From contig JAIQEZ010000048.1 of NCBI GenBank assembly GCA_020073545.1, positions 1 through 33,651 on the forward strand: DNA of 33,651 nucleotides. Reading direction: 5' to 3'. The notes under the pieces are model-generated. The model ran no database searches. It had not been told where the DNA came from and saw nothing but the letters and a program-made list of their open reading frames with translations. This stretch comes from Terriglobia bacterium (GTDB taxonomy: Bacteria; Acidobacteriota; Terriglobia; UBA7540). A program made the position numbers and the translations under genes. Positions 29,750 through 33,651 of this stretch are shown here, one piece after another (position 1 is the first letter of the stretch; each line of letters starts with the position of its first letter).

Positions 29750-30593
29750 CGACCGGATTATTCCCCTCTCGGAAGCTCGCCTGTCGCCTGGCCAGATGGG
29801 CTTGCTCATGGGCTGGGGCGTCTTCACCACGCTGCGAGTCTACGCAGGGTCCCCTTTCGCCTTTGAGCGGCACTGGGTGCGGATGGCCCGGGACGCGGAA
29901 CGATTGGGCGTCGCGCTCGATTCCCATCAGGAAGCCGTGTGGGAAGCGATTGTGAAGCTGGCGGCCGCCAATCACCGGCCGGAAGGCACGGCCCGCCTTT
30001 CTTTCATCAAGAATCACGGGGGCCTTTGGGCGGATGCTCCCGACCACCCGGCCACGGACCTGCTGATCTTCACGCGCGAACTCGCGGCCTGGCCGGCGGC
30101 TCACAAGCTCAAGCTCGTCCCCAACGCCATCTTTTCCAGTGGAAGATTGGCCGGCGCGAAGATGCTCTCCTGGGTGCAGAACGCCGCCACACTCGAGAGA
30201 GCTCACGCGGAAGGATTCGACGATGCGCTGCTCTTGAACGAGCGAGGTCACCTGGCGGAATGCACGTCGGCCAACGTCTTTCTGGTGCGCGACGGCCGGG
30301 TTCTGACGCCGCCTCTCAGTTCGGGCTGCCTGCCGGGAATAACCCGGGAGGTGCTCGGAGAGGTCACTCCGGGCGTGGGGTACGAACTTCTCGAACGGGA
30401 GCTGACCGCGGACGATCTGGGTTCGGCAGAAGAGGTCTTCATCAGCTCGACAACTCGCGAGGTCGCGGCCGTGGGAAGCATCCATCCGAACTGGCGCTAT
30501 GCAACTCCGGGGAAAATCACCCGCGCGCTCGGAGCGGCTTTTCAGCAGTACGTCAGATCTTATCTAAAGCGCGCCGCCGCTTCCCGTTCCTGA
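29727..30593 (+). CDS. pabC: Aminodeoxychorismate lyase (class IV PLP enzyme)
   Basis: Removes pyruvate from aminodeoxychorismate to give p-aminobenzoate. The 288 residues show the class-IV aminotransferase fold: LSPGQMGLLMGWGVFTTLRVYAGSPFAFERHWVRM, RLSFIKNHGG, the PLP-lysine region GAKMLSWVQNAATLERAHAEGFDDALLLNERGHLAECTSANVFLVRDGRVLTPPLSSGCLPGITREVL, and SAEEVFISSTTREVAAV. Branched-chain and D-amino-acid aminotransferases share this fold. The overlap with pabB points to the lyase. ATG 29727 lies within the pabB end. The C-terminus runs to Ser-Arg-Ser at 30593. Confidence 0.88.
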   Translation: MDSLIYHNDRIIPLSEARLSPGQMGLLMGWGVFTTLRVYAGSPFAFERHWVRMARDAERLGVALDSHQEAVWEAIVKLAAANHRPEGTARLSFIKNHGGLWADAPDHPATDLLIFTRELAAWPAAHKLKLVPNAIFSSGRLAGAKMLSWVQNAATLERAHAEGFDDALLLNERGHLAECTSANVFLVRDGRVLTPPLSSGCLPGITREVLGEVTPGVGYELLERELTADDLGSAEEVFISSTTREVAAVGSIHPNWRYATPGKITRALGAAFQQYVRSYLKRAAASRS

Positions 30594-30755
30594 CTTCCAG
30601 ATTTCCGGCTTGCTCTTCCAGGCCTCCAGTGGCGACTCATTTTGGCACAAAGGGGTTTCGGTCCTCACCAGGGTCGGCCCCCGCACCGTCTTACTTGCCA
30701 GAGTTAACGCGGCTGGTCAGCCAAACGGCCAGCCCGAATTTCCCACCACGGACGA

Positions 30756-30888
30756 GGGAGGGCGGGGCTTTAGAGTCTGTGTGAAAACCTCAGATTTCAC
30801 GCTTTCGCGAACGGAGATTCAATGACTTGCATTGTGGAAAAGGCCGAAAAACCGGGTTTTCACACAGACTCTAAAGCCCCGCTCTCCC
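30756..30888. mobile_element. MITE-like element with 34-bp inverted repeats, related to the IS at the right edge
   Basis: Two 34-bp arms (30756-30789 and 30855-30888) are exact complements except at one position. They enclose 65 bp with no coding potential. The inner arm reads TAGAGTCTGTGTGAAAACC. The IS tip at 33466 reads GAGTCTGTGTGATAAC, so 15 of 16 positions agree. The outer part of the arms (GCGGGGCTTTA) may instead be a palindromic target site. I see no short target duplication. Probably a non-autonomous derivative moved by an IS of that family. Confidence 0.78.
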
Positions 30889-30986
30889 GACCGCTGGGAA
30901 AAAGGCGTTGTGTGCTGAGATATCGGGGCTAGAGGGCTCACTACCAAGCTCCCCGCGAACTCTGCTTGCTGCAATTCACGCCTTGC

Positions 30987-31007
30987 GATAATTTAGATGT
31001 AATCTAA
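30987..31007 (+). promoter_or_regulatory. -10 box with adjacent operator-like palindrome before the kinase gene
   Basis: GATAAT (30987-30992) is followed at once by TTAGAT-GTA-ATCTAA (30993-31007), a perfect 6-bp dyad with a 3-bp centre, where transcription would begin. TTGCTG at 30966-30971 could be the -35, but the 15-bp spacer is short. A dimeric regulator could bind the dyad (inference). Confidence 0.4.
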
Positions 31008-31055
31008 GGAACGACGGAATCCTATTCAGGCTTGGGCCGGACAGCGCCCACACTT

Positions 31056-32558
31056 ATGCGGGAAGAAACCACGGAATCGGCGAGAGTCTCCCCGGCAAGT
31101 AGGGGCGAGCGGCGCTCGCCCCCGGGCCGAACGCCGTTCGGCTCTGCACCGGAGGCCGCACACGACCTCTTGAGTGAGATTCCCTCCCCTTCCCGGCGTC
31201 TCTGGCTCGGGCTGTGTGTTACCCTCGCCATTTTCGTTATCTTTGCCTCCTACACCATTCGCGAAATCCGCTGGCTCCAGGACTTCCAGGTCAACGTGGT
31301 GCAGAAGAACCGGAAAGCCTCCCTCCAGCTTCTGCGGCTGCAAGACGACACGTACCAGCTTGCCGTCTCGCTTCGCGACATGACCCTTCCGGAAAGCCGC
31401 TACCCGATCTTCTACTGGAAGGGCGAATTCTCGCGGCTGCGCGACGACATGAACAACGCGTTGGCTATGGAGGCCCAATACGCCGCCAACACTCCTGCCG
31501 GCGATCAATTGCGCCGGCAACTGCGCGACATCCTCGACAACTTCTGGTTGCTCGCCGACGAAGCCTTCAACCTGGCGGACCAGGGCCATGAGGATTCCGC
31601 CCGCTACCTCATCCGGTCGCAGCTCGAAGAGCAGCGGGAGACGATTTCCCGAGTCGTGTCACGCTTGCTGAGCTTGAACGACCAGGCGCAGCAGGAAGCC
31701 GGCCAGCGCGTCAGCTCGGTGTATGGACAAGTCTCCAAGGACATCTTGCTGCTCATTGGCGTGCTCTTCCTGGTCGCGCTGGGAACCGGACTCTACACCC
31801 TGCAAGCCAACCGGAAGACCTTCGAGCGCCTGCACCACCTGGCGGAGAAACTGCAGTCGCAATCGGAGCAAATGCGCATGCTCTCCTGGAAGTTAATCGA
31901 AGTCCAAGAGCGAACGCTCCGACATGTGGCGCGGGATTTGCACGACCATTTCGGGCAGATCCTTACCGCGATTGGGGTCATGCTGGGGCGGGCGGGACAA
32001 AAAGCTCTGGACAAGGACCCCGTCTTCGTCCAGGATGTGCAAGCCGTCAAGAAGATTGTGGAAGACACCTTGCAGAGCGTCCGGGACGAGTCCCAGATCT
32101 TTCGTCCCGCGATTCTGGATGATTTCGGCCTGCAACAGACGCTCGAATGGTTCGCGGAACAATTCTCGCGGCAGACCGGCGTGCAAGTGCATTACCAAGG
32201 AAAGCTCTCCGACGGTTTCCTCGCTCCGGAGGCGGCCATTCACGTTTATCGCATCGTGCAGGAGGCGTTGAATAACGTGGCGCGCCATTCGGGCGCACGG
32301 GAAGCTTGGGTGACCGTGGAAGAGAAAGAAAACCTGTTAAACTTGGAAGTCCGCGATAAGGGCGCCGGCTTCGAAGTCGGCGCGGAAGTCAAGAGGGCGG
32401 CAGGTCAAGGCATTGGGTTGATGGGAATGCGCGAGCGCGCCGAACACCTGAATGGCTCGTTCGCAATTCGCTCCGCGCCCCAAAAGGGGACAACGGTCAG
32501 CGTGCGCGTTCCGCTCCCCCGGCCTTCTCTGCGCCCCGTCTCAGAGGAAGCACCGTAA
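31056..32558 (+). CDS. NarL-type sensor histidine kinase
   Basis: 500-residue membrane sensor kinase. I prefer ATG 31056 to the TTG at 31032. The cytosolic N-terminus contains Arg/Pro-rich residues encoded by two GC hairpins. Membrane helix 1 (RLWLGLCVTLAIFVIFASYTI) leads to an extracytoplasmic helical sensor domain of about 175 residues, then helix 2 (ILLLIGVLFLVALGTGLYTL), a coiled linker and HisKA_3 with its box HVARDLHDHFGQILTAIG (phospho-His about residue 296). The HATPase has IVQEALNNVARHSGA, DKGAGFEV and GIGLMGMRERAEHLNGS. The ligand is unknown. The partner regulator follows, with a hairpin element in between. Confidence 0.9.
   Translation: MREETTESARVSPASRGERRSPPGRTPFGSAPEAAHDLLSEIPSPSRRLWLGLCVTLAIFVIFASYTIREIRWLQDFQVNVVQKNRKASLQLLRLQDDTYQLAVSLRDMTLPESRYPIFYWKGEFSRLRDDMNNALAMEAQYAANTPAGDQLRRQLRDILDNFWLLADEAFNLADQGHEDSARYLIRSQLEEQRETISRVVSRLLSLNDQAQQEAGQRVSSVYGQVSKDILLLIGVLFLVALGTGLYTLQANRKTFERLHHLAEKLQSQSEQMRMLSWKLIEVQERTLRHVARDLHDHFGQILTAIGVMLGRAGQKALDKDPVFVQDVQAVKKIVEDTLQSVRDESQIFRPAILDDFGLQQTLEWFAEQFSRQTGVQVHYQGKLSDGFLAPEAAIHVYRIVQEALNNVARHSGAREAWVTVEEKENLLNLEVRDKGAGFEVGAEVKRAAGQGIGLMGMRERAEHLNGSFAIRSAPQKGTTVSVRVPLPRPSLRPVSEEAP
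31099..31142. repeat. Two tandem GC hairpins inside the kinase 5' coding end
   Basis: GGGGCGAGC-GGC-GCTCGCCCC (31102-31122, 9-bp stem), preceded by GTA as in the hairpin at 32699, then GCCGAAC-GCC-GTTCGGC (31126-31142, 7-bp stem). Both are perfect. They lie in the reading frame and encode the Arg/Pro-rich N-terminus. Confidence 0.75.
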
Positions 32559-32678
32559 CAGGGTGTTGAAAAACGTGTAGCGGCGACTTCACGTCGCCAC
32601 CTTGAGATCGAACCAATTGGACCTATGGCGATGTAAAATCGCTGCTACCTCGCAACGTCGGGGTTCTTCAACACCCTG
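32559..32678. mobile_element. 120-bp MITE-like hairpin element between kinase and regulator
   Basis: Terminal inverted repeats CAGGGTGTTGAAAAAC (32559-32574) and GTTCTTCAACACCCTG (32663-32678) pair with one mismatch. A second inner inverted pair is GTAGCGGCGACTTCACGTCGCC and the complement of GGCGATGTAAAATCGCTGCTAC, also mostly matching. There is no coding frame. It starts on the base after the kinase stop codon (TAA, 32556-32558). No clear target duplication. The terminal CAGGGTGTTGAA resembles insertion-sequence ends, but I cannot name the family. Confidence 0.72.
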
Positions 32679-32698
32679 CTAAACTGTGACGGTGCCGC

Positions 32699-32729
32699 AG
32701 TAGGGGCGACGCGGCGCGGCGCCCCTACT
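32699..32729. repeat. Short palindromic repeat upstream of the response regulator
   Basis: AGTAGGGGCG (32699-32708) and CGCCCCTACT (32720-32729) are perfect complements around an 11-nt GC loop. It shares GTAGGGGCG with the hairpin at 31099. There is no T-run, so a Rho-independent terminator is unlikely. It probably belongs to a dispersed extragenic palindrome family. Confidence 0.75.
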
Positions 32730-32754
32730 CATCTCCAAGGAAGCGAGCTGAACC

Positions 32755-33429
32755 GTGGCTGCGATCGGAACCGAAAAAAAGATTCGAGTCTTGCTCGCCG
32801 AGGACCACACCCTGGTCCGGCAGGGCTTCCGGCGAATTCTGGAAGACGATCCCAAGGTCAGCGTGGTCGGAGAGGCGCGCACCGGGTTGGAAGCCATTGA
32901 GCAGTGCAAAACCCTGAAGCCCGAAGTGGTCGTGATGGACCTCTCCATGCCCGACCTCGGCGGCCTGGAAGCCACGGCGGAAATCCTCAAGGCTGATCCC
33001 GAGGTCAAAATCCTCATCCTCAGCATGTACTCGAACGAGGCCTACATCCGCAAAGCCTTCGAACTCGGCGCCAAGGGATACATGCTGAAGAATGCCATCG
33101 AGCTGGACCTGAACCGCGCCGTGAAGGCCTTGGCGGAGGGCGAAGCCTATTTCAGCCCGGCCATCTCCCACATCGTTCTGGAAAGCATGAAGACGGGATC
33201 GTTCCGTGAATCCGCGCAAGAACCCTACGACCGCCTCACCCTCCGAGAGAAGGAAGTCCTGCAACTCATTGCCCAGGGCAAGTCCAACAAGGAAATCGCG
33301 GTGCTCCTCAACATCAGCGTGAATACCGTGGCGGTGCATCGCGCCCGACTCATGGAAACTCTCGGCCTCCACCGCACAGCTGAACTGGTGCTCTACGCCG
33401 TGAGGAAGGGCCTCGTCCAGGCCGAGTAG
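32755..33429 (+). CDS. NarL/FixJ-family response regulator
   Basis: 224-residue regulator paired with the preceding kinase. The receiver domain (residues 9-125) has Glu16 and Asp17 in LLAEDHTLVRQGF, the phosphoacceptor Asp62 in VVVMDLSMPDLGG, Ser in ILILSMY, and Lys in GYMLKNA. After a short linker, the LuxR/GerE helix-turn-helix (about 158-218) reads LTLREKEVLQLIAQGKSNKEIAVLLNISVNTVAVHRARLMETLGLH. It starts at GTG 32755, with AAGGAAG 11 nt upstream. The space to the kinase (196 bp) is filled by two hairpin repeats, so coupling of the pair may be weakened or rearranged by them. Confidence 0.93.
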   Translation: MAAIGTEKKIRVLLAEDHTLVRQGFRRILEDDPKVSVVGEARTGLEAIEQCKTLKPEVVVMDLSMPDLGGLEATAEILKADPEVKILILSMYSNEAYIRKAFELGAKGYMLKNAIELDLNRAVKALAEGEAYFSPAISHIVLESMKTGSFRESAQEPYDRLTLREKEVLQLIAQGKSNKEIAVLLNISVNTVAVHRARLMETLGLHRTAELVLYAVRKGLVQAE

Positions 33430-33465
33430 CACTGGTCAACTCCAAATTCATCACCCTCTCCCGAG

Positions 33466-33651
33466 GAGTCTGTGTGATAACTCTCGGTTGGGCACGTGCA
33501 GGGAACGCGGGCGAGGAGGCCCGCGATGAGATTTCTGCCCTACGAACCAGATCAAGCGTGGTTGTTGCCGCCCAGCGTGAAGGACGTGCTGGGAGAAGAT
33601 CACTTGTGCTTTTTCGTGCATCGGGTGGTGGAGGAACTGGACCTGAGCGGG
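33466..33651 (+). mobile_element. IS1182-like insertion sequence, left end, cut by the window edge
   Basis: Begins with a terminal motif GAGTCTGTGTGATAAC (33466-33481) matching the MITE arms at 30771 and 30860. A transposase frame follows 45 bp later. The right end is outside the window. Breaking at an insertion sequence is a common reason for a contig end. Confidence 0.7.
33526..33651 (+). CDS. IS1182-family transposase, N-terminal fragment
   Basis: The first 42 residues of a transposase, open at the window edge, from ATG 33526 behind GAGGAGG. The sequence MRFLPYEPDQAWLLPPSVKDVLGEDHL followed by FVHRVVEELDLSG is the typical start of IS1182-like DDE transposases (YDPNQLxLLPPSLxDLLPEDHLxxFV type, DUF772 region). 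The catalytic Asp-Asp-Glu lies further on and cannot be checked. Family assignment rests on this block and on the inverted-repeat tip. Confidence 0.85.
   Translation, partial: MRFLPYEPDQAWLLPPSVKDVLGEDHLCFFVHRVVEELDLSG

Follow-up and report, generated by a model that had tools for sequence, protein, structure and literature searches.

Hairpin targeting by an IS1182-family element (IS1272) and an IS1182-type MITE (MITEPye1) have already been published, and the loop-duplicating outcome has so far mainly been proposed on paper. Concerning palindromic targets, Siguier 2015 is cited by others. In the portions of text available, IS1272 and TnSha1, IS1182-family elements of Staphylococcus, are described as inserting into hairpins or inverted repeats that show little sequence conservation (PMC4923244; PMC5678879). 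The data of the second paper, from 2017, showed stem-loop replacement, in which the stem-loop is partly or wholly deleted by IS1272 and nothing is duplicated; a 'pathway c', which would duplicate the loop and keep the stem, is drawn there (Fig 13) as a possibility (PMC5678879). In the literature searched, we found no description of a natural loop-duplicating IS1182 insertion. As far as the available sections of these papers go, the insertions reported here share with IS1272/TnSha1 an IS1182-family transposase and palindromic targets (PMC4923244; PMC5678879), but differ from IS1272 in that the stem arms are retained on both sides and 4-5 central bases are duplicated, an arrangement that resembles 'pathway c' (PMC5678879). 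Two other systems are close, judging from the accessible text of their descriptions. MITEPye1 of Paracoccus yeei is likewise an intergenic MITE with IS1182-family-like ends and 4-bp direct repeats, although it is 159 bp long and of other sequence and that text makes no mention of palindromic targets (PMC11578231), and ISPsy8 and other REP-inserting ISs also enter a repeated palindrome at its symmetry axis and make a short direct repeat, although the elements and hosts are others and the duplications of ISPsy8 are of 3 bp (PMC1525189).

The window (the whole stretch of 33,651 nucleotides that was analysed, here contig C45) belongs to a 5.28-Mb draft genome, G000, which has 261 contigs and is 95.5% complete. 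The MITE and its surroundings are arranged as follows.

30731..30930, no strand assigned: host repeat with ends AGCCCGAATTTCTCACCACG / GTGGTGAGAAATCCGGGCT and the MITE in its central hairpin; 15 copies have both halves
30756..30768, + strand: left arm of the target palindrome, GGGAGGGCGGGGC, from arm complementarity and copy comparison
30769..30772, + strand: left loop copy TTTA, side 1 of the target duplication; empty host repeat copies have a 4-nt loop here
30773..30871, no strand assigned: MITE-A, 99 bp, with 16-bp terminal inverted repeats GAGTCTGTGTGAAAAC; its ends are where similarity between copies stops
30872..30875, + strand: right copy of the loop, TAAA; not a direct repeat of the left TTTA but its reverse complement
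30876..30888, + strand: right arm of the target palindrome, GCCCCGCTCTCCC, also from arm complementarity and copy comparison

The MITE-A tip GAGTCTGTGTGAAAAC, found at 30773-30788 (+) and at 30856-30871 (-), is the same at 15 of 16 bases as the tip GAGTCTGTGTGATAAC of the IS at the window edge (33466-33481, +). This agreement, pointed out in an earlier note on the sequence, held up: none of 100 shuffled windows contained a match with one mismatch or fewer. The terminal repeats are common to MITE and IS throughout the genome as well, where 50 end matches within two mismatches were counted against 3 for the reversed control. The same note had taken the MITE to be 133 bp long. Its inverted ends are real, and the inverted arms 30756-30789 / 30855-30888 are 97% complementary, but the conserved unit is only 99 bp, as the GC arms vary among copies. 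That the whole 133-bp palindrome moves, with the GC arms as part of the MITE, would agree with the near-perfect complementarity of these arms and with the similar arms carried by C113 and C152. Yet other MITE-A copies have different arms or unrelated flanks, and similar arms also surround MITE-B and exist as unoccupied repeats; we therefore reject the larger unit as extremely improbable.

A search of the genome recovered eight full-length copies of MITE-A (82-100% identity) and a degraded one at C217. The element thus described is a 99-bp, non-coding sequence with inverted ends, and five of its eight full copies are bounded by identical 4-bp duplications. Ends of the same type enclose other interiors in elements of 132 bp (C84, C152), 121 bp (C69) and 54 bp (C24). 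A wider search for the MITE gave matches in 7 of 101 genomes, G000 included, and outside the genus the match spans only 25-30 bases. The end group (GAGTCTGTGTGA, within one mismatch) was present in 18 of the 39 genomes of the family and absent from the reversed control. One genome of another genus, G033, contains 97 end matches and a burst of a 121-bp MITE (L238-L297). The related species G003 has two 99-bp elements (L112, L119) about 75% similar to MITE-A over the matched part, which lie inside CCCTCTCC-GAGG-GGAGAGGG-like palindromes and have GAGGCTGTTTCAAAAC-type ends, so a MITE lineage can apparently switch ends; the near-identical end GAGGTTGTTTCAAAAC begins two other elements of that genome. 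A second MITE-like element, with ends near CAGGGTGTTGAAAAAC, was observed in the window at 32556-32681, flanked by genes for a histidine kinase and a response regulator; it is missing at this place in the G006 genome, where more than 20 other places have similar copies.

The outer GC arms had also been proposed to be a palindromic target older than the insertion, and this was borne out, the core of the repeat being found unoccupied elsewhere in the genome. Among the 15 copies of the host repeat with both halves, with gaps derived from match coordinates, C115 and C124 are empty, with a loop of exactly 4 nt and no insert. The loop is replaced by 107 bp (4+99+4), which is MITE-A, at C45 and by 140 bp (4+132+4), which is MITE-B, at C152, while 233 bp that include MITE-A separate the halves at C113. 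The gap is 7 nt in two copies, 129-131 bp in five (double-hairpin forms in those inspected) and 29, 43 and 261 bp in the remaining three. In G006, GAGTCTGTGTGA elements occupy two places in the same hairpin, and CAGGCTG-ended elements occur inside the host hairpin in G003, in G006 and at C174 of the present genome. The host repeat family (window 30731-30930; L174, L176, L178, L213, L211) has single- and double-hairpin forms and inverted ends of its own, and is possibly mobile itself. The unoccupied reference for the window MITE is provided by these paralogous repeats and not by the corresponding locus of G001: gene content and gene order agree there, but query positions 700 to 1261 are without similarity, which shows absence only and is not a direct empty site.

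The IS at the edge of the window comprises the following features.

33454..33462, + strand: left arm of the IS target palindrome, CCCTCTCCC; the right arm, GGGAGAGGG, is on C22
33461..33465, + strand: 5-bp duplication CCGAG, whose partner adjoins the right end of the IS at C22:6438
33466..33651, + strand: left end of the IS1182-family IS, interrupted by the contig end; complete copy at G000:C54:2440-3831, 1392 bp
33496..33651, + strand: first 52 codons of the transposase, which has 412 aa in the complete copy

The complete copy on C54 is 1392 bp long, has a single intact ORF of 412 aa and ends in GAGTCTGTGTGATAAC / GAGTCTGTGTGGCAAC; the motif shared with the MITE is thus present at both true ends. 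The IS1182-like nature assigned to the window element was confirmed on this copy, whose transposase start and the window fragment share 98% identity: the protein belongs to the IS1182 family by NCBIfam NF033551 (330.1 and 335 bits, cutoff 270) and has Pfam DUF772 and DDE domains. A diverged full copy with an 80% identical protein is found at C200, and the remaining copies are interrupted at contig ends. Transposase relatives with at least 60% identity and a name are from acidobacterial drafts. Other IS1182-like ISs, with GAGGCTGTCTCAAAAC ends (L127 on C115, L129 and L130), were seen in CCCTCGCC or CCCTCTCC palindromes.

For the window copy, the most likely continuation is at C22:6438. CCGAG is repeated on both flanks of the C45/C22 IS, and a single locus of G006 matches both its C45 and its C22 side (88% over 229 bp, 81% over 413 bp); there, on one contig, the C22 sequence is 147 bp away from the response-regulator gene, with no IS between them. 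As the G006 site is devoid of the CCCTCTCC palindrome, it proves that C45 and C22 are adjacent but not what the target was. The other three of the four contig-end pairings are based only on matching duplications, C45/C22 having the G006 synteny in addition. Palindromes of CCCTCTCC type are the targets at C45/C22, C173/C253, C139/C70 and C200, and weaker palindromes were found at C54 and C186/C23.

An identical duplication of 4 bp borders six of the 13 complete elements of the genome; single elements have 5, 3 and 2 bp, and four have none, C113 and C84 among these four matching at three of four bases. Identical direct duplications of 4 bp occur at 6 of 11 MITE copies, and two more match at three of four bases. 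These counts exclude the 54-bp element of C24 and the degraded copy of C217. The direct 4-bp duplication is absent at C45, C152 and C200. The loop copies at C45 (TTTA/TAAA) and C152 (TTCA/TGAA) are perfect reverse complements, as could arise if the template was switched inside the palindrome once the element had inserted. In G033, 60 stretches were sampled out of the 97 end matches; 36 hold both ends and 24 do not, and 22 of the 36 two-ended elements have an identical duplication of at least 4 bp.

The duplication at the complete IS of C54 is 5 bp. Duplication lengths and target classes differ between IS and MITEs, and as possible driver of the MITE we give about equal chances to the window IS and to a cousin that was lost or left unassembled. 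The MITE duplications are of 4 bp, mostly in GGC-NNNN-GCC-like palindromes, whereas those of the window IS are of 5 bp and lie in CCCTCTCC palindromes, in which no MITE-A copy is found. A different IS1182-type driver with the same end group and 4-bp duplications would account for this, and such ISs exist in G027 and G010, where 4-bp TTTA and TATA duplications accompany transposases (taken as L138 and L141) that are 60% and 67% identical to that of the window IS. Against it, no such IS is found in the 95.5% complete draft, in which the transposase search gave C54 and C200 as the only full copies, besides distant ones, C72 and C115 with GAGGCTGTCTCA-type ends among them. We consider the cousin, with the window IS as its relative, to be nearly an even prospect.

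Rejoined flanks were folded as DNA and compared with permuted flank pairs at 17 sites of this genome, 14 sites of other genomes and 27 of G033. The set from other genomes leaves out two ISs with GAGGCTG ends (C72, C115), same-site repeats under a second locus number and chance pairings of a true end with an unrelated motif; from the G033 set, seven elements were dropped for fewer than three of four matching bases and two as duplicates. Of the two GAGGCTG-end ISs, one has a 6-bp duplication and no clear stem and the other a CCCTCGCC palindrome and no duplication. Folding energies were lower than for permuted pairs in all three sets: -9.52 vs -6.57 kcal/mol in this genome (7 of 1000 permutations as low), -8.19 vs -5.44 in the others (0 of 1000) and -6.99 vs -5.86 in G033 (5 of 1000). 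A perfect stem of at least 5 pairs flush with the duplication was found at 5 of the 17 sites here, at 5 of the 14 in other genomes and at 2 of the 27 in G033; the corresponding rate among window positions is 0.155%. Palindromes of the IS class (CCCTCTCC-N3-9-GGAGAGGG) were present without an insertion at 16 sites and those of the GTAGCCCACGGC class at seven, with none in either control. The GGCGGGGC-N4-GCCCCGCC form with up to 3 mismatches was barely enriched (250 vs 191 in the control), and for it exact and host-repeat matches are the only informative ones.

Many sites are nevertheless stemless. Three of 11 MITE sites (C72, C50 and C69) show no convincing stem, and 25 of 27 in G033 have no flush stem of at least 5 pairs. 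The stemless sites fit a short symmetric motif, approximately CGGCC-TNNA-GGCCG, and the G033 consensus is symmetric, duplication position 1 being T in 20 and position 4 being A in 24 of the 27 sites. Pairing beyond this consensus is weak (101 of 216 pairs vs 87.5 expected, a value reached in 284 of 20000 permutations). The hairpin is therefore a preference and not a rule for insertion; what counts at a deeper level may be the symmetry of the sequence. Of the two kinds of site at which copies might have been expected, hairpins were favoured and terminators were not supported as targets: the region 30580-31100 has no terminator-like site, and the longest T-run downstream of the arms in the 17 sites of this genome is 3.

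These results bear on how the target is recognized. The transposase could read a short symmetric motif in ordinary duplex DNA, long hairpins being hit only as intergenic GC-rich repeats that bear the motif. The 27 G033 sites, mostly without long stems, speak for such a reading, but the arms vary by site and yet pair better than permuted partners in all three sets, and the CCCTCTCC, GCCCACGGC and GGGCGGGGC arms are unlike one another (the TTTA-centred form is GGGCGGGGC-TTTA-GCCCCGCCC). We regard it as plausible, at somewhat less than even chances. Structure-dependent targeting, in which the hairpin is extruded, the ends are joined at the loop edges and the exact loop is duplicated, so that duplication length follows loop length, appears rather unlikely. 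If true, it would explain duplications of 4 in N4 loops and of 5 in CCCTCTCC palindromes, and the reverse-complement loop copies of C45 and C152 would be a by-product of repair on a palindrome.

Whichever form is recognized, extruded hairpin or symmetric duplex, the overall explanation that we propose, with considerable confidence, is that an IS1182-family transposase from the group with GAGTCTGTGTGA ends moved the MITE in trans into GC palindromes whose centre was duplicated. The 99-bp MITE would be a non-autonomous passenger of this DDE transposase group, to which the window-edge IS belongs. The transposase would favour GC palindromes and join the 3' ends of the element about 4-5 bases apart across the palindrome centre, so that gap repair would duplicate the loop and keep the two arms of the stem. 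The palindrome targeted in the window was the central hairpin of another repeat.

IS1182 hairpin targeting is known mainly from IS1272, an element that removes the target as it inserts. The insertions described here leave the stem in place and duplicate its centre. The loop-duplicating group spans one acidobacterial family, with enough IS and MITE copies to test structure against symmetric sequence as the basis of target choice. The nesting of the MITE in the host repeat helps to explain the origin of composite palindromic repeats in intergenic regions.
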